DNA of 64,000 nt from Reichenbachiella faecimaris. Its GTDB lineage: Bacteria > Bacteroidota > Bacteroidia > Cytophagales > Cyclobacteriaceae. Under the pieces are notes generated by a model. That model did not search any database and had not been told where the DNA came from. It saw only the letters and a program-made list of their open reading frames with translations. The translations under genes were made by a program, and so were the position numbers. Position 1 is the stretch's first letter, and every line of letters begins with the position of its first letter. The stretch is taken from contig NZ_FWYF01000002.1 in assembly GCF_900176375.1 (NCBI RefSeq), positions 1 through 64,000 of the forward strand, read 5' to 3'. This document shows, piece after piece, positions 5,792 through 13,942 of the stretch.

Positions 5792-8239
5792 CTATTCCGA
5801 AATAGACATGATGTGGCGCAAGGCGGCTGTGATCTCCTCACATGCCTTTTTGATTTTTTCTATCAACTGACCCTTTTTATTACCTTTTTCAAGTAAAATG
5901 CGTGGAACTTCATTCATTAATTGGGGCAAGCTGGAAATGCCCAAAACTTCATTGCTGGTTTTAATGGAGTCGCAGGTTTGTTTGATCAATTTCTCATCGG
6001 CGTTATCCATAGCCTCCAAGAAGTCGGAGAGGAAATTTTGATAGATTTCTAAATAGTGCTCTGCCAACTCTTTAACAAAATCCTGATCATTGTCGGCCAA
6101 CTTGAGTAGCTTGAGTCCAATGGGATGATCAGTAGAAACTGCATGTTTCTTCATGACCTTGCCTCGATATTTCAATATTTTTTTGTAGAGCTCTTCAGGA
6201 TCAAAGGGCTTGGTGATATAGTCAGTCATCCCCAATTCCTTTACTTTTTTCCGTACATGGAGCAAGGCAGAAGCAGTCAGTGCAACTATGGGTAAATTTT
6301 GCGCATAGACAGAGTTTAGTTTTCTAATGGCTTTTGTGGCCTGATAACCGTCCATTTCTGGCATTTGAAGATCCATTAATATCAAGTCATATAGTTCAGT
6401 TTTTGATCGTTCTAGTGCCAATCTGCCATTTTCAACAAATTCCATTTTGATCCCCCACTTTACCAAAAATTTCTCCAATACAATCTGATTGGCTCTGTTG
6501 TCTTCTGCCACAAGAATATGAATTTTTAAATCAGCCAAATTGTCAAACTCCGGCTGAACGAATTTCTCATTTGATTCAGGGCTTTTCTGATTTCCTATAG
6601 GCAATATCAAATCAAAAGAAAAAATAGAGCCAAAACCTAATGCACTATCTAGCTCGATCTGGCTATCCATCAGCTGCAATAGTTTTTTTGAAATGGCCAG
6701 CCCCAGACCTGTACCACCAAATTTGCGTGTGGTATCATCACTTGCTTGTTCGAAATTTTCAAATATAATAGACTGATTAGCCTTCTCTATTCCAATACCC
6801 GAATCATGGACTTCAAAATGAACTTGGACTTCCTCTCCTCTCTTTTCAAGCTGAGTTACACTTAGTTTAATAAAACCCTCATCCGTGAATTTTATAGCAT
6901 TGCTGAGCAGATTGTTAATGATCTGAGTGATACGTACTGAATCTCCAATAAATCTTTGGGGCAGGGTCTCGTCATACATGAAGGTCATTTCCAAGCCTTT
7001 TTTACCAATCTCAGGCGCCAATGATTGCTTCAGGGCAGTCAAGATTTCCTTTAGGTTAAATTCCGCTTTTTCTAGCTCTACCTTGCCCGATTCTATTTTA
7101 TTGTAATCCAAAATATCATTGATCAAACAAAGTAGATTCTCCCCTGAGAACTTAAGAAGATTCAAATGTTCTAAATGCTCCTTTTTGAGTTCTTCCATGA
7201 GAAGCAAATTGGTTACTCCAAGAATGGCATTGAGCGGCGTTCTAATCTCATGACTCATGGTGGACAAAAAATTCTCCTTGGCTTTTGCAGATTCAATGGC
7301 CTCCTGCTTGGCCTTCTCAGCAAGCTGCATGGCTTCCTGAATGGCCTCATCATATTTTCTTCTTTCCGAAATATTTCTAGCCACTCCAAATGTTCGCACG
7401 CCCACGTCATCCTGAAATTCTATCTCTACGGTTTGCCCCACCCAACATGGGCCATTGGCTCCTTTCATTTTAAATTCCAGGTATGATGATCGGGTATGAT
7501 TTTTAAGGATATCAATATAATGTTTCGACACTCTCTCCGCATCACCTGAGTCTACAAGATCAGAAAAATGCATTTCGAGTAATTGTTTTTCAGAAAATCC
7601 AGATTCCCTGACCAGGGCCGGATTTACGTAGATAAAGTACCCTTCCGTGTTTAACTCGTAAACCATATCTCCTATTCGCTCGATCCTGTCACGAAACGTT
7701 TTTTCTGCATGAATCTGCTCCTTTTTGCTTTCCTCCAGATGTAGATTGGTTTTTCTCAGTTCTAGTAAAGCAGTAACTTGACGTGAAAGTGCCCATAAGG
7801 CTTCTCGCTGTGCATCACTAAGCGTCTTAGGCTCATGATCTATCACGCATAAGGTTCCCAATGAATACCCATTAGAAGAAACCAATGGTGCTCCGGCATA
7901 GAACCGGACATGTGGGTCTCCTGTAGCTAAAGGATTGTCGTAAAACCGCTCATCCTCATAGGCGTCAGGTACTTCTAAAATGTCTTCGGGTGTGTGAATG
8001 GCATGTGCACAATAGGCCAAATCTCTGGGAGTCTCTGAGGCGTTCAATCCATGTCGAGACTTGAACCACTGGCGGTCTTTGTCTATCAGGCTGACCAACG
8101 AAATTGGTGTCTCGCAGATAAAAGCAGCAATTTTGGTGATATCATCAAAACGCTGCTCAAGCGCTGTGTCAAGAATTTCATAGGACTTTAACTCGGCAAG
8201 TCTTTCCTTTTCGTTGCTAGGTATTTCAGGTTTTTTCAT
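5792..8239 (-). CDS. Cytoplasmic hybrid sensor histidine kinase (GAF-PAS-HisKA-HATPase-REC, degenerate Hpt)
   Basis: The 815-residue protein has no membrane segment. Domains in order: GAF (~24-165), PAS (~180-292), HisKA with SHEIRTPLNAILG (His330), HATPase_c with the N-box NLLSNAIKFT and G-box GGTGLGLAIS, and a receiver domain with phospho-acceptor Asp623 in LILMDLQMPEMDG. The last ~105 residues align with an Hpt domain, but the key histidine is Asp757 (CDSIKTSNEVLG where Hpt domains have xHSLKGxxxxLG). It should autophosphorylate and pass phosphate to its own receiver, but cannot use its own Hpt. It lies 203 bases upstream of the giant gene's ATG and is closely related to the kinase at 10724-13942. 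The signal sensed is unknown. Confidence 0.9.
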   Translation of the reverse strand: MKKPEIPSNEKERLAELKSYEILDTALEQRFDDITKIAAFICETPISLVSLIDKDRQWFKSRHGLNASETPRDLAYCAHAIHTPEDILEVPDAYEDERFYDNPLATGDPHVRFYAGAPLVSSNGYSLGTLCVIDHEPKTLSDAQREALWALSRQVTALLELRKTNLHLEESKKEQIHAEKTFRDRIERIGDMVYELNTEGYFIYVNPALVRESGFSEKQLLEMHFSDLVDSGDAERVSKHYIDILKNHTRSSYLEFKMKGANGPCWVGQTVEIEFQDDVGVRTFGVARNISERRKYDEAIQEAMQLAEKAKQEAIESAKAKENFLSTMSHEIRTPLNAILGVTNLLLMEELKKEHLEHLNLLKFSGENLLCLINDILDYNKIESGKVELEKAEFNLKEILTALKQSLAPEIGKKGLEMTFMYDETLPQRFIGDSVRITQIINNLLSNAIKFTDEGFIKLSVTQLEKRGEEVQVHFEVHDSGIGIEKANQSIIFENFEQASDDTTRKFGGTGLGLAISKKLLQLMDSQIELDSALGFGSIFSFDLILPIGNQKSPESNEKFVQPEFDNLADLKIHILVAEDNRANQIVLEKFLVKWGIKMEFVENGRLALERSKTELYDLILMDLQMPEMDGYQATKAIRKLNSVYAQNLPIVALTASALLHVRKKVKELGMTDYITKPFDPEELYKKILKYRGKVMKKHAVSTDHPIGLKLLKLADNDQDFVKELAEHYLEIYQNFLSDFLEAMDNADEKLIKQTCDSIKTSNEVLGISSLPQLMNEVPRILLEKGNKKGQLIEKIKKACEEITAALRHIMSISE

Positions 8240-8295
8240 GCGGAACTAAAATTAAACTAATTTTTCTCTTTTCCGCCAACTAGAAATTTACTCTC

Positions 8296-8322
8296 CCCAT
8301 CTTTTGCTAATGAAAAGATGGG
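8296..8322. terminator. Inverted repeat between kinase 1 and the LytTR gene
   Basis: A perfect 10-base stem (CCCATCTTTT / AAAAGATGGG) with a 7-base loop lies just downstream of the LytTR gene. On the minus strand it is followed by GAGAGT rather than a T tract, so it is a weak terminator or an mRNA-processing hairpin between two genes of the block. Confidence 0.35.
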
Positions 8323-8342
8323 TCTCTTTAAAATATCAATCC

Positions 8343-9044
8343 TTATAGCAGTTCAATTCTTGACAGCAATTCGGGCTTGTATTTCGCGCTTACAGGTACT
8401 ATGGCATCCCCAATCAACAGACTGTTTTGATCTATATTATCTATTTTATTAATCTGAACCAGATAGGAACGATGCACTCTCAAGAAGAGCTCTTTTGGCA
8501 ATTTTTTCTCTATGCTACTGAGTTTGTGATACACCACATGGGTTTTTTTCTCGGTATGAACCTTGATGTAATCTCCATAACCTTCCACATACAATATGGT
8601 CTCATACATCACCTTGGTCAGTAAAAAATCAACTTTCATGAAAACAGCATCATTGCCGGCAGTCTTTTGCTCTTTAAGCGCAATGTTTTCTTTAGCCTTG
8701 GTTACTGCCTTGACAAAACGTGGGTAACTTTCTATGGGCTTGACCAAGTAGTCCGTCACATCAAAATTGAAGGCCTCCACTGCATATTTTTCCTGAGAGG
8801 TAATAAGAATAATTTCAGGCTTTTTGCTCAAAGATTTGATAATATCCAAACCACTGGCTTCAGGCATCTGAATATCAAGAAACACAATATCCGGCTCCAA
8901 TTCGATAATGGCGTTGGTGCCCTCCAGGGCATTCTGATACGAACCCAACAACTCTAAAAAGCCCGTTTGTTCTATTAATGAAGTAATGATTTTAAGCGCG
9001 ATGAACTCGTCATCTATGGCAACACATGTTAATTTTTTCGACAT
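8343..9044 (-). CDS. LytTR-family response regulator
   Basis: The 233-residue protein has a receiver domain (~5-120) with phospho-acceptor Asp57 in VFLDIQMPEASG and the conserved Lys in YLVKPIE. A C-terminal LytTR DNA-binding domain (~140-230) shows typical features: ILYVEGYGDYIKVHT, SSIEKKLP and FLRVHRSYLVQINKI. It is the only DNA-binding protein in the signalling block. In many Bacteroidota LytTR regulators pair with 7TM kinases; here the neighbours are hybrid kinases and a phosphotransferase, so it is the likely relay output. Candidate target sites are the ACTCGGTGA repeats at 5658-5687 and 10668-10718. No such repeat is seen before its own gene. Confidence 0.93.
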   Translation of the reverse strand: MSKKLTCVAIDDEFIALKIITSLIEQTGFLELLGSYQNALEGTNAIIELEPDIVFLDIQMPEASGLDIIKSLSKKPEIILITSQEKYAVEAFNFDVTDYLVKPIESYPRFVKAVTKAKENIALKEQKTAGNDAVFMKVDFLLTKVMYETILYVEGYGDYIKVHTEKKTHVVYHKLSSIEKKLPKELFLRVHRSYLVQINKIDNIDQNSLLIGDAIVPVSAKYKPELLSRIELL

Positions 9045-9228
9045 TCTTTCTTAGGTTAGCAGCTGCTGATTGATACGAAAAGGCTATCAAGATTCAACCT
9101 TTTCATCAACATAAAAGTTACAATAAAAGCTTGAAATATCTTCGTTTTTGCTTGAGTAATTATTTTACATCTCCAACTCAACCTGCTAGATGAAACATGA
9201 AACAACAATAAGGAAATCATAAATGAAT

Positions 9229-10596
9229 TCAGGTATAAATTCCCTTCAATTCTTCAAGTTTTGCACTGGCTTCACGAATAAAGCTGACCAAATGAGTCTG
9301 TAGATAGGTGCTATTTTTTTCAAGAGCTGCTTCTTCTATGCCAAAAATCTGATCAATGAACTGTTTTTGTTCAAGATTTTCAAAATTCGGCTTTACCTTA
9401 TGTGCAGTCCTAGCCAAGGAATCGAAATCTCTCGCTTCATACTGAAGACTCATTTTTTCTAGTTCGAACGGGACCACATCAAGCACTCCTTCTACAATAT
9501 CCCTGACCATATCCTCATCTTGATTGGTGATCTGATACAAATAAGGAAATGCTTTCTTGGTGATGGCTTGGGTTTTTACATTCGAGACCCTATCGACCGC
9601 CTTCATTTCTAGCATTTTTATTTCTTCAATATTGCACAACATGGCCATGGCACCCTTTTCTTCTATCAACTCATAAGAACCGTCGATTTCTGAATATTTT
9701 CCAATGATTCTTTTAATAGCGTCCCTCAATAAATTGGATTTGAAAACAATTCGAATACACCTTGTGGCTTGATCATAGGTGAATTTGATTTTCACATGCC
9801 CATCAGGTTTGCTTTCATTGATGATACTTAGTAGCCTAACGATACCTGTGTACACCTTGTGTTTATTGCCGATCACAATTGATGACTCAAACTCTTTCTC
9901 AAACAGCAGGTGAGCCTCTGACTCATTCAGAAAGGTATCCTGCACTGCCGCTATAATTTGGTCTATCTTGAAGGGCGTATTTGTCTCCTTCAATTCTGTG
10001 GATGCCATCTGACTGATGGCGTGTTCGAGGTAGCCCGTAATGATGCCACAGCTTTGCTGATATCTTTTTTTAAGCTCAGGTTCCAGCTGATCAGTAATTG
10101 ACTTAGAGATATATTTCAATCCCGCAATAGGTGCTTTTATCTCATGATACAGTTTAGATCCAATCGCATGATTAACCCTTAATTCTTGTTCTAACTCAAT
10201 GACTTGTTGCCTCAGAGATTCCAATTCTCCAACCACCCCCTTCTCTGCCAAATCTCTCTCTATCACCTCCTTGTACAGCTGCGTGTGATCCTGAATGAGC
10301 CAATGAATAAATTCATTTTCTCCTTTTTTTACCTTCTCTATTCGATAGTCGCAAATCATCTGAGATTTAAAAAATCGATCAGAGACACAAAAGAAATTGA
10401 GTACCTCTCCTGGTTCGAGATCAAGGATTTGTGTCTTGTTGCTACTCAAGAATTGACTTTTCTTAAAAATAGACCCTTCGAATTTTGCCAAGTTTTCTAA
10501 CGTGTGGCAAGACTTCAGGTATATGCCATTGGCATTGAGTATAACCAACTGGGCAGATTTGCCCAAAATATCTCGTTTATAAAATTCGTCATTCAT
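9229..10596 (-). CDS. Kinase-like phosphotransferase: PAS-like, DHp, degenerate ATPase, Hpt
   Basis: 455 residues without a membrane segment. A PAS-like N-terminus (~10-115) is followed by a coiled coil (~118-145) and an H-box-like helix with YHEIKAPIAGLKYI (His151). The following region has the size of an ATPase domain but lacks the N-box asparagine and the DxGxG and GxG motifs, so ATP binding is unlikely. Residues ~350-455 form an Hpt-like domain with the histidine kept (His399 in ARTAHKVKPNFENL). This resembles the logic of Spo0B and ChpT, kinase-derived phosphotransferases without catalysis, with an extra Hpt added. Both neighbouring hybrid kinases lack the Hpt histidine, so this protein is the probable shared relay. 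Direct repeats of LytTR type lie upstream. Confidence 0.75.
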   Translation of the reverse strand: MNDEFYKRDILGKSAQLVILNANGIYLKSCHTLENLAKFEGSIFKKSQFLSSNKTQILDLEPGEVLNFFCVSDRFFKSQMICDYRIEKVKKGENEFIHWLIQDHTQLYKEVIERDLAEKGVVGELESLRQQVIELEQELRVNHAIGSKLYHEIKAPIAGLKYISKSITDQLEPELKKRYQQSCGIITGYLEHAISQMASTELKETNTPFKIDQIIAAVQDTFLNESEAHLLFEKEFESSIVIGNKHKVYTGIVRLLSIINESKPDGHVKIKFTYDQATRCIRIVFKSNLLRDAIKRIIGKYSEIDGSYELIEEKGAMAMLCNIEEIKMLEMKAVDRVSNVKTQAITKKAFPYLYQITNQDEDMVRDIVEGVLDVVPFELEKMSLQYEARDFDSLARTAHKVKPNFENLEQKQFIDQIFGIEEAALEKNSTYLQTHLVSFIREASAKLEELKGIYT

Positions 10597-10632
10597 GCTT
10601 CAATTCTCTTTTTGCCGCTACAATCATTTAGA

Positions 10633-10718
10633 GCAATCTAGATATTACTATAGCCTCAAAAATTTATTCTCGGTCAAAATGGAGTCTTTGATGCTGACTG
10701 GCAGCAATCACTCGGTGA
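10633..10718 (-). promoter_or_regulatory. LytTR-type operator and promoter of the phosphotransferase gene
   Basis: Sites lie at 10710-10718 (ACTCGGTGA, identical to the giant-gene operator), 10668-10676 (TCTCGGTCA, 7 of 9 matches) and, halfway at 10689-10697, a weaker TGATGCTGA. All are in phase at 21 bases. A -7-like TAGATTGC (10640-10633) lies 28 bases downstream of the proximal site, the same distance as at the giant gene. The site nearest kinase 2 overlaps nothing coding, since kinase 2 ends at 10724. Confidence 0.6.
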
Positions 10719-10723
10719 AATTT

Positions 10724-13700
10724 TTATTGGGCATTGTACCTTTTTACTTCCTCCAGGCTTTGAATCACCTCTTTACTAACTGTTTCTACTTTGCTGAACA
10801 CTTTTTCCTTCCCTTTTGATGTAGCCAAAAAAGCATCTATCGCCTTCAATACCTCTTCCAAATCATCTACACCTAATGCCTCATTACTGACCTTGATCTG
10901 ACCACATGCACTTCGGACTGCCTCATGATCATCTCCCTTCAGCGCCTCTGCAAATGCGGATAAAAACGACTGGTAGTTTTCAGTATAATGAGCGATCAAC
11001 TCATCCATAAACACAGTATCTCCACCAGTATACTCCTGCAGTTTGAGGAAGATTTTATTCTTAGACACATCAGGTTTTGGTTTGCTGTCAACCACGCTAT
11101 GGTACTTCAATATTTTTCGATATAACTCCTCGGGATTGAAAGGTTTGGTGATATAATCAGTCATTCCCAATTCTTTCACCTTCTTCCTGACGTCCAATAG
11201 GGCTGAAGCCGTTAATGCTATGATGGGTATATGGGCTGCATATTCGGTCTTATTTTTCCTTATCTCGATGGTCGCCTGATAGCCATCCATTTCCGGCATT
11301 TGAAGATCCATAAGAATCATGTCAAATTGTTCCGTCTTTGATCTGGAAACAGCCTGAAGCCCATTCTCTACAAATTCCACTTGGACACCCCACTTCTCTA
11401 GAAACTTCTCCAATACGATCTGATTGGCTCTGTTGTCTTCGGCCACCAGTATATTGATGTTTCGATCACTTAGACTTTCGAAGGTATTGGTGTCTGCTTG
11501 TCTATGATCATTCTTTGACCTTACTGCTCCTAGCGGTAAAGAAATATCAAATGAAAACACAGATCCTTTGCCAAGTTCGCTTGTCAAATGGATATCGCTT
11601 CCCATGTATTCCAAAAGTTTTTTGGTAATGGCTAACCCCAGTCCCGTCCCTCCAAACTTCCTAGTTGTATCTCCACTAGCCTGTGAAAAATTCTCAAAAA
11701 TCATGGCTTGATTTTCAGGGTCTATGCCAATACCTGTATCGGATATTTCAAAATGAATTCGGGCCGCTTCATGGTCGATTTCGGCAGCTGAAACAGTGAC
11801 TGAAATTCTTCCTTTTTCAGTAAACTTTATCGCATTTCCCATCAAATTATTGACAATCTGAGAAACTCTCACAGAATCTCCAATGAACACTTCCGGCAGT
11901 TTCTTGTCGTAGTTTAATTCCAGACTTAAATCCTTCTCATCCACTTTTAGAAGCATGGATTTCTGAATATGTTCAAGCAAGGTTTTCAGGTTGAAATCGA
12001 TTTGTTCGAACTCAATCTTTCCAGCGTCTATTTTGTTGTAGTCTAATATGTCGTTGATTAAGGTAAGCAGGTTTTCTCCTGAGAATTTGAGTAATCTCAA
12101 ATGCTCCAAATGCTCTTCTTTCATATCTTCCATCAAAAGCAAATTGGCTACGCCCAAAATGGCATTGAGCGGAGTACGTATCTCATGACTCATAGTCGAC
12201 AGAAAATTCTCTTTTGCTTTGGCAGAGGCCAAAGCTTCTTGCTTGGCCACCTCTGCTAATTGCGTGGTTTCATGCAAAGCCTGCTTATAATTTTTATCAG
12301 CTGTAATATCCCAATTGGTTCCCACCATACGGATGGGCTCGCCATGGGTGTCGCGCTCTACAAGAGCTTGCGCACGAATGTGATGTACAGATTTGTCTGG
12401 CCAGACGACTCTAAACTCAGTATCAAACTTCTTTTCTCCTGAGATGGCCTGGGCTACCTCAAGATCACCACGTGCTATATCATCTGGGTGAACACCATTT
12501 CGCCAAGCGTCATAAACTCCTCCAAAGGTTTCCTTGGTGATGCCATACAATTCATACATGATATCGTCCCATACCAACTGATTCTGCTGAAGATCATATT
12601 CCCAAATACCAATTTTGGCTGCCTGAGTAGCTAGTTTCAAACGGTCAGATACGCTTTTAAGGGCTATTTCAGCTTCCTTTCTTTGCGTAATGTTTTCAAT
12701 TTGTGAAACAAAATGAAGCGGACGATCAGTCGCATCCCTTACCAGAGACACGCTCAACAGGGCCCAAACCAAATCGCCATTTTTATGGAAATACCTTTTT
12801 TCCATTTGATAGCCATCAATTTGCCCTGCGATCAACTGCTGCACCTGTACAACGTCTCTTTCCAAGTCTTCCGGGTGTGTTATATCTTGAAAGGTCATTT
12901 TGATAAGTTCCTCCCTGGGATAGCCTATGATTTCACTTAACTTCTTGTTGGTACTCAGCCATTTACCAGAGGTTGAGACCAGAGCCATCCCAATGGCAGA
13001 ATATTCGAAAGCGCTCCTAAACTGCTCCTGTGTTTGTCTCAGGCTATCCTGAATTTTATCTCTCCTGTTCAAAACCAGGATTAAAAACCAGGTGGTTATG
13101 AGCAACCCAACAATAATGCACGCGATAAGGATAGATATGCCCAGCTCAGTGCTCATTGTCGTATTGGCCTCCATCAGGATTCTGAGGTAACCAAATAGCA
13201 CAGGAATTATGATGATTAGTGGGATCAAAATTTTAGCTACTCTTCCTCCCGAATATGGGCTATTGATCACTTTCATAAAGCCACTTTTGGAGTTAACTAA
13301 CAACTGGCCTACGGCTATTAAGACAAATCCAACGGCCGTATAAAACGACATGGGAAGGAAAGCCAGAATGCCTTGAAACTCACCAATGCGATACAGATAG
13401 CCAATGACAGAAAAAAAGCCTACGACAAACACAGAAACCAACAAGATATTGGCAATTTGGATATGTTTCTCGCGATCTCTTATGGACAAAACCATAGCAG
13501 CAGCAAACAGCAGGAAACCCAGTGCAGTGTTAGGAGCCATGCTGTTAAGCTTGCCTTTTTCAAGATCAGCCTGTAGCTGTTCAGCGCAAATCACCTGGTC
13601 TATTTGAAACGCTGACTGGGTCATCAGGTTGGCCATTTTTACTGAACCTATGGCAATCAGCAACACAACTACCAGTTTCACTATCCAATGTGGGAGTGAA

Positions 13701-13942
13701 AACCCAGATTTTTTCACGAGGCAGATGATTCCTAGTCCTGATAAAATAAAACAAATCGCTGTCAGTGGATTAACTGCTGCAAGACCTGAGGTGGGTCTCT
13801 TAAGTACTTCTACATTAAAGACCCACCCTATAAGAGTCAAAAAGCCTACAAATACAGTGAAATAAGCAATTAACAAAGGTAATCTGGGGTGAGACCGTCG
13901 CTCGCCAATAGCCTCTTGAAAATCATTTTTAGGTAAGGTCAT
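10724..13942 (-). CDS. Membrane hybrid sensor histidine kinase (8 TM, PAS-PAS-HisKA-HATPase-REC, degenerate Hpt)
   Basis: The 1072-residue protein begins with about eight transmembrane segments (~20-295), a membrane-sensor arrangement whose ligand is unknown. Two PAS/PAC units (~306-420 and ~435-550) follow, then HisKA with SHEIRTPLNAILG (His586), HATPase_c with GGTGLGLAIT, and a receiver with Asp879 in MILMDLQMPEMDG. The C-terminal Hpt-like segment has Gly1014 where the phospho-accepting His should be (ACGQIKVSNEALG). From HisKA onward it is strikingly similar to kinase 1 at 5792-8239, so the pair arose by duplication with a change of input module: membrane here, GAF in kinase 1. It likely feeds the same relay. 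Confidence 0.9.
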   Translation of the reverse strand: MTLPKNDFQEAIGERRSHPRLPLLIAYFTVFVGFLTLIGWVFNVEVLKRPTSGLAAVNPLTAICFILSGLGIICLVKKSGFSLPHWIVKLVVVLLIAIGSVKMANLMTQSAFQIDQVICAEQLQADLEKGKLNSMAPNTALGFLLFAAAMVLSIRDREKHIQIANILLVSVFVVGFFSVIGYLYRIGEFQGILAFLPMSFYTAVGFVLIAVGQLLVNSKSGFMKVINSPYSGGRVAKILIPLIIIIPVLFGYLRILMEANTTMSTELGISILIACIIVGLLITTWFLILVLNRRDKIQDSLRQTQEQFRSAFEYSAIGMALVSTSGKWLSTNKKLSEIIGYPREELIKMTFQDITHPEDLERDVVQVQQLIAGQIDGYQMEKRYFHKNGDLVWALLSVSLVRDATDRPLHFVSQIENITQRKEAEIALKSVSDRLKLATQAAKIGIWEYDLQQNQLVWDDIMYELYGITKETFGGVYDAWRNGVHPDDIARGDLEVAQAISGEKKFDTEFRVVWPDKSVHHIRAQALVERDTHGEPIRMVGTNWDITADKNYKQALHETTQLAEVAKQEALASAKAKENFLSTMSHEIRTPLNAILGVANLLLMEDMKEEHLEHLRLLKFSGENLLTLINDILDYNKIDAGKIEFEQIDFNLKTLLEHIQKSMLLKVDEKDLSLELNYDKKLPEVFIGDSVRVSQIVNNLMGNAIKFTEKGRISVTVSAAEIDHEAARIHFEISDTGIGIDPENQAMIFENFSQASGDTTRKFGGTGLGLAITKKLLEYMGSDIHLTSELGKGSVFSFDISLPLGAVRSKNDHRQADTNTFESLSDRNINILVAEDNRANQIVLEKFLEKWGVQVEFVENGLQAVSRSKTEQFDMILMDLQMPEMDGYQATIEIRKNKTEYAAHIPIIALTASALLDVRKKVKELGMTDYITKPFNPEELYRKILKYHSVVDSKPKPDVSKNKIFLKLQEYTGGDTVFMDELIAHYTENYQSFLSAFAEALKGDDHEAVRSACGQIKVSNEALGVDDLEEVLKAIDAFLATSKGKEKVFSKVETVSKEVIQSLEEVKRYNAQ

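Follow-up and report, generated by a model that had tools for sequence, protein, structure and literature searches.

A pseudokinase as the probable shared phosphotransferase of two hybrid histidine kinases in Reichenbachiella

Results

A four-gene cluster encodes the parts of a probable split phosphorelay

The window that we analyzed, 64,000 nucleotides of Reichenbachiella faecimaris (contig NZ_FWYF01000002.1, positions 1 to 64,000), holds four genes, K1, M, R and K4 in this order on the minus strand, whose products probably form a phosphorelay of four steps distributed among separate proteins: two hybrid histidine kinases (K1 and K4), a proposed shared histidine phosphotransferase (Hpt) protein (M) and an output response regulator (R). 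In this relay, K1 would autophosphorylate at H586 and K4 at H330, the phosphoryl group would move to the kinase's own receiver (D879 in K1, D623 in K4), and from either receiver it would pass to His399 of the same M protein and on to Asp57 of R, the kinases' own Hpt-like tails being predicted unable to accept it for want of the histidine. A preliminary description, made from the letters of this DNA alone and giving coordinates at which the open reading frames (ORFs) do lie, had claimed such a His-Asp-His-Asp relay. Its residues hold: the first histidine and aspartate (H1 and D1) are intact in the kinases, the second histidine (H2) is missing from them and found in 10 of 10 M proteins, and R belongs to 10 of 10 clusters, while the transfers between them are what we infer. 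Domain and residue states, linkage, the grouping of R with regulators linked to intact hybrids and the collinearity of M with those hybrids carry this reading, all of them taken from sequence.

K1 (1072 residues, 10724..13942, minus strand like every feature below) has eight hydrophobic segments, two PAS domains, HisKA (H586), ATPase and receiver (D879) domains and an Hpt-like tail (residues 956-1072, 10727..11077), in which Gly1014 (codon 10901..10903) takes the place of the phospho-accepting histidine. K4 (815 residues, 5792..8239) has GAF, PAS, HisKA (H330), ATPase and receiver (D623) domains and an Hpt-like tail (residues 701-815, 5795..6139) with Asp757 (codon 5969..5971) at that place. 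Pfam assigns HisKA, HATPase_c and Response_reg to both proteins and GAF to K4, and the H-box, the N, G1 and G2 motifs and the receiver Asp and Lys are complete in both, as in hybrid histidine kinases and as had been claimed for them; neither has the C-terminal Hpt with an accepting histidine that would make it a tripartite kinase-receiver-Hpt protein. M has no hydrophobic segment and K4 a single borderline one, within its GAF. K1 is thus membrane-located and K4 probably soluble, in agreement with the two inputs, one through an eight-segment membrane region and one through a cytoplasmic GAF, that had been proposed.

The receivers of K1 and K4 are 77% identical. We considered and rejected gene conversion between the two genes: within-genome identity of the kinase parts (65, 72 and 70%) does not exceed that of the same gene between species (71-86%), bar one tie-like value, and the receiver shows no within-genome effect because that of K1 in the window (77% identical to its own K4, 70-74% to three K1 orthologs) is equally near the K4 of another genome, G002 (78%). 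Two Marinoscillum-genus genomes encode, downstream of R, separate kinases (L090:11761-14103, L091:12237-14591) with relatives of the eight-segment sensor region of K1 (42 and 49 bits), and K1 may have arisen by fusion of a sensor of this kind to a kinase resembling K4.

M is a pseudokinase that keeps a phosphotransfer domain

By its sequence features, M (455 residues, 9229..10596) is a pseudokinase made up of a PAS domain, a histidine-kinase remnant without ATP motifs and an Hpt. The PAS-like region is followed by the pseudokinase part (residues 119-335, 9592..10242), a helical hairpin and an ATPase-like domain without N, G1 or G2 box, with H151 at the old H-box, and then by the Hpt domain (residues 345-455, 9232..9564), which Pfam scores below its cut-off (E 0.18) and which profile comparison and modeling identify. 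His399 (codon 9400..9402) and Lys402, the HxxK motif expected of an Hpt phosphotransferase, are unchanged throughout the 10 M proteins. The preliminary description was therefore right to see an Hpt-like domain with His399 in the middle gene, but M is not a plain Hpt gene, and the pseudokinase had been overlooked.

A first scan of the genome contigs with M alone as query found no relative, and a plasmid search found no match. An M profile matched 37 of 295 genomes of the family (Reichenbachiella and Marinoscillum are both Cyclobacteriaceae in GTDB); 10 of these have M genes, and the others hold mainly hybrids of 630-660 residues, short PAS-LytTR proteins and Hpt-only matches. When the 10 M proteins were aligned with 11 hybrids, the two were collinear from the PAS until roughly the N-box, beyond which M lacks the remaining kinase motifs and the entire receiver, and the alignment resumes at the Hpt. 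Indeed, the N, G1 and G2 boxes are absent from 10 of 10 M proteins and present in 12 of 12 hybrids, so that M does not qualify as an active kinase. In profile comparisons, which here and below are one-to-one and built from few sequences, the pseudokinase part scored 96.7% against the hybrid kinases (E 3e-10) and the Hpt of M 99% against the hybrid Hpt (E 5e-18). The old H-box histidine is retained in four of five Reichenbachiella M proteins, G005 having Asn there, whereas the five of Marinoscillum have no His at the site; three of the latter are shorter still (373-400 residues). In all five pairs computed for Reichenbachiella, conservation is highest in the Hpt (73-86%, compared with 44-66% for the PAS and 56-75% for the pseudokinase).

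RcsD is the sole NCBIfam entry that M matches at E≤0.1 (E 2e-4); the match covers the Hpt part and reaches 19.3 bits, where the curated cut-off is 634 bits; a sequence search of the PDB gave nothing relevant (best E 0.33). The structural model of M, whose alignment took in active hybrids, has a mean predicted local distance difference test (pLDDT) score of 81 and a predicted template modeling (pTM) score of 0.44, so that the domain arrangement is unsure. Foldseek returned 129 matches at E≤0.001, among those listed mostly histidine kinases, including phytochromes and RetS chains, with low TM-scores across the whole length.

The tail histidine is lost in kinases beside M

To judge by the sequences, the loss of the histidine from the kinase tails is more than chance, because none of 13 kinases beside M (10 loci, Reichenbachiella and Marinoscillum) has His at the tail site and all 17 other matches have it. 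These 30 matches (E≤1e-60) came from a profile of receiver plus tail run against the 295 genomes, with at most nine candidates per genome scored; within them, loss of H2 is confined to the kinases adjacent to M, and His also occupies the Hpt site in the 11 hybrids aligned with M. The alignment confirms Asp757, Gly1014 and His399 as the residues named beforehand. The site holds G, D, E and E in kinases of the K1 type and D, N, E and Y in those of the K4 type; in Marinoscillum it reads gap, E, A, E and Q, residues that are unsure because those tails are not recognizable as Hpt by profile. K1 and K4 come from another line of kinase-REC-Hpt hybrids than M, one whose Hpts are live (that is, keep the histidine), and the four live relatives viewed in full (two in G306, one each in G065 and G211) begin with a GAF, as K4 does. 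A midpoint-rooted tree built on kinase plus receiver (35 rows) gathers the dead-tail rows in one weakly supported region (83/77), where G306a and G306b, both live, also sit next to the Reichenbachiella group.

The Reichenbachiella tails have an Hpt fold

Database searches with single tails gave faint signals. No Pfam Hpt match was found for the K1 and K4 tails at E≤1, and when eight tails were searched, one matched Hpt (E 0.047), below unrelated families. An Hpt search of the one genome scored the K1 tail at 14.4 bits, a sub-threshold value, and M at 13.4 (cut-off 24.6), and did not list the K4 tail. A sequence search of the PDB placed designed helical proteins on top and an HPt protein at E 0.12, and the NCBIfam ArcB model aligns across both tails, nearly to its end. 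By profile, the eight Reichenbachiella tails matched two sets of live Hpts, those of PAS-kinase-REC-Hpt hybrids at 95% (hhalign, E 2e-8, 103 columns) and another at 94% (E 1e-7), with controls at 0.2% for both DHp (E 0.27) and PAS; the Hpt of M itself was matched at only 51% (E 1.6e-4). Five Marinoscillum tails scored 93.7% against the Reichenbachiella tails and 0.9, 8 and 23.5% against three live Hpt sets.

An AlphaFold2 model of the K4 receiver and tail, from an alignment of 13 dead-tail kinase rows, has a mean pLDDT of 87 and a pTM of 0.54. Its tail helices span model residues 138-146, 151-177, 181-198, 202-207, 210-214 and 219-245, and D757 (model residue 189) lies nine residues into the helix that matches that of His399. 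In the M model, the Hpt helices span 361-387, 391-407, 411-425 and 429-454, with His399 in the second, and the two models agree in helix order, helix lengths and site position. Foldseek gave 1617 matches for the K4 model at E≤10, of which the best 50 are receiver proteins. Together, the profile and model evidence indicates that the Reichenbachiella tails are helical bundles homologous to Hpt. The claim of Hpt-shaped tails is thus borne out for this genus, and the models, a check proposed along with it, show a bundle like the Hpt of M and do not contradict an Hpt fold.

Possibly exchangeable kinases accompany a fixed M-R core

R (233 residues, 8343..9044), with its phospho-acceptor Asp57 (codon 8874..8876), consists of REC and LytTR domains by Pfam, so that a LytTR regulator does follow M as described. 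A survey of gene neighborhoods, which had been suggested as a check, shows that all 10 M loci combine M and R with a dead-tail kinase. All five M-bearing Reichenbachiella genomes have M and R, accompanied by both kinases in G000, G002 and G007, by K1 only in G001 and by K4 only in G005; since the last two keep M and R, the pattern fits exchangeable inputs onto a fixed M-R core. In the five loci of the Marinoscillum genus there is a single kinase each, of the GAF type and 1312-1332 residues long. Tails found at E<1e-40 occur in five of the eight Reichenbachiella-genus genomes, those having M, and in none of the three without it.

The gaps between the genes (127 bases between K1 and M, 184 between M and R, 103 between R and K4) are such that separate promoters are possible. 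Cross-species alignment of the upstream regions gave short shared blocks only, and we claim no site. In G005, two overlapping ORFs (348 and 594 residues; L033:5760-8580) make up K4 and set GAF-PAS apart from kinase-receiver-tail, which is either a real split or a sequence error. In three of the five Marinoscillum-genus genomes, a single-receiver gene (119-123 residues; L035:10868-11239, L090:8607-8972, L091:9161-9520) stands between M and R, a possible phosphate sink or extra branch.

The dead tails are under relaxed constraint

The dead tails had been suggested to act as docking decoys, an idea that the comparison at matched divergence does not support so far. Where kinase plus receiver are 65-75% identical, mean tail identity is 30% for dead Reichenbachiella tails (18 pairs), 41% for live tails (5) and 20% for dead Marinoscillum tails (2); at 75-85% the values are 46% (9), 58% (6) and 30% (1), and in a third bin 69% for dead and 77% for live tails (one pair each). 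The dead tails thus appear to evolve somewhat faster than the live ones, which are fast too, under constraint that is relaxed and not absent, and those of Marinoscillum are more eroded than those of Reichenbachiella. We do not count these patterns as support for a decoy. A role may nonetheless have been kept, since 13 residues are invariant across the eight Reichenbachiella dead tails: H728, C756, which adjoins the dead site, and S762-N763-E764 (an SNE motif) are among those conserved in 8 of 8, and of the 17 live tails 0, 1 and 0 have H728, C756 and E764, respectively. These residues may hint at such a role.

R groups with regulators that accompany intact hybrids

We examined 15 loci that hold a kinase with an M-like PAS. 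A REC-LytTR gene lies beside the kinase in 12 of them (12 genomes, 6 other genera); in G016 the LytTR gene is one gene away and the hybrid is spread over two ORFs. In a tree that took in 12 of the 22 own-genome LytTR paralogs extracted, these paralogs stand apart, and the LytTR genes from the 10 M loci cluster with those from the 12 hybrid loci in a single group (96/94 support). Because R groups with hybrid-linked LytTR genes, M appears to stand in place of R's former kinase. M would then be a former PAS-kinase-REC-Hpt hybrid that lost ATP binding and the receiver and kept the PAS and the Hpt, and K1 and K4 would be recruited relatives of kinase-REC-Hpt hybrids that lost the Hpt histidine after, or with, the takeover by M. 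In short, the kinase that once belonged to R was probably reduced to a phosphotransferase as recruited kinases replaced it, a direction that we infer from the distribution, with trees rooted at the midpoint.

In the other genera, the hybrid and REC-LytTR genes cluster with a protein of about 275 residues without Pfam family and a Ras/Rab-like small GTPase (PF00071), at L094, L096, L097, L102, L103, L104, L106 and L107 and also L036-L038. By phmmer, the two genes adjoin 8 of the 12 hybrid loci; elsewhere they are the queries themselves (G023), or were assigned by reading (G026, G016) or by size only (G019). A scan of the eight Reichenbachiella-genus genomes found no Ras-like GTPase, and, having no positive control, this empty result shows nothing. 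A Ras-like GTPase tied to a phosphorelay merits separate study. In four genomes, the same PAS is joined directly to a LytTR domain (255-258 residues; L095:2552-3319, L099:8011-8784, L100:8328-9104, L101:8003-8773), beside the same GTPase, and these fusions may be relays collapsed to a one-component regulator.

Discussion

Several observations weigh against the split relay as we draw it, or against parts of its history. The Marinoscillum tails are not recognizable as Hpt by profile, and in one Marinoscillum pair (G224-G187) the PAS of M is more conserved than its Hpt (75 and 65%). Three of the 15 loci with M-like-PAS hybrids (G044, G145, G233) have no adjoining LytTR gene. Because live G306a and G306b fall within the dead region of the tree, one histidine loss and two would both be compatible with it, and the co-occurrence of tails and M is partly trivial, since the genes form one cluster and are inherited jointly, not independently. 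Given the gaps between the genes, co-transcription of K1, M, R and K4 is not assured. Furthermore, the genome has other Hpts as possible partners, at least a stand-alone protein of 164 residues (C3) and a REC-Hpt protein of 241 residues with His (C4).

These Hpts lend themselves to a different wiring, in which K1 and K4 phosphorylate C3 or C4 and M-R is a separate pathway. Both proteins are present, and the tail of C4 (L176:6453-7178), with its histidine, is nearer to the dead tails than anything else in the genome bar K1 and K4 (E 1e-17), but both lie outside a cluster in which M, R and a dead-tail kinase stay together in 10 of 10 loci, and we judge this wiring quite unlikely. They would also be needed if M were a pseudokinase regulator that forms mixed dimers with K1 and K4 via its hairpin, inhibiting or gating them, while the relay uses another Hpt. 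RetS acts on GacS by mixed dimers, and RetS chains are among the listed Foldseek matches of M, which keeps a kinase-like hairpin (helices 105-168 and 173-198) and an ATPase-like fold in its model (pTM 0.44, active hybrids in the alignment); moreover, in the Marinoscillum pair above, the hairpin of M as well as the PAS is more conserved than the Hpt. Yet H399 is present in 10 of 10 M proteins, the Reichenbachiella pairs conserve the Hpt best, the Marinoscillum proteins have a shortened hairpin and no histidine at the old H-box, and the loss of H2 in the neighboring kinases would be left without a reason, which makes a purely regulatory M unlikely, if arguable. Direct transfer from the H-box histidine of K1 or K4 to R, with M as phosphate sink or phosphatase, has no direct support; it would render the intact receivers of K1 and K4 needless, and the hybrid that accompanies R in other genomes has a live Hpt, so that we regard it as very improbable.

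M is a clear candidate for a pseudokinase retained for its phosphotransfer domain. We tentatively suggest, with doubt prevailing, that a relay like RcsCDB might have arisen anew by complementary decay, R's self-contained kinase turning into a PAS-gated hub and the captured three-part kinases losing their Hpt histidine. The PAS that M retains would then be a third input, opening or closing the flow from both kinases. The origin of split relays such as Rcs from single-protein kinases is hard to trace without intermediates. Here, one family retains the whole hybrid, the demoted kinase, its shorter forms, live and dead Hpts of the recruited kinases and related LytTR regulators alongside, so that one can test in which order the losses came and whether each part is needed.

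Among the top-listed open-licence PMC papers, we found no description of this K1/K4-M-R system. That a kinase can use another kinase's Hpt is known from LadS via GacS and from RscS and HahK via SypF. In Pseudomonas aeruginosa, H1 and D1 are those of LadS, H2 is that of GacS and D2 that of GacA (PMC4866733). K1 and K4 resemble LadS in being hybrid kinases that would use the Hpt of another kinase, whereas M, unlike GacS, an active unorthodox kinase, has no ATP-binding motifs. In Vibrio fischeri, the activating kinases RscS and HahK likewise work through another protein's Hpt, that of SypF, which alone complements a sypF deletion; SypF differs in that its source calls it a sensor kinase, has HahK signal also through LuxU and gives SypG and SypE as outputs (PMC12369376). 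AHP6, an Arabidopsis pseudo-HPt with the histidine replaced, is said to compete with live HPts for kinases (PMC7402358). It is a free protein, whereas the dead Hpt of K1 and K4 is fused to the kinase, for which an inhibitory role is only a candidate. A likeness in layout is also seen in RcsC-RcsD-RcsB, with a hybrid kinase without working Hpt, a separate inactive-kinase phosphotransferase with a C-terminal Hpt and a separate regulator. Indeed, RcsD is described as an inactive kinase-like phosphotransferase that does not autophosphorylate (PMC5651002). M differs from RcsD in having a PAS-like start and no membrane-anchored N-terminal part, and, unlike the Rcs system, ours has a LytTR regulator and kinases that retain a dead Hpt tail. 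Since M, again unlike its Rcs counterpart, is collinear with a local PAS-kinase-REC-Hpt hybrid, M and RcsD are likely of separate origin.

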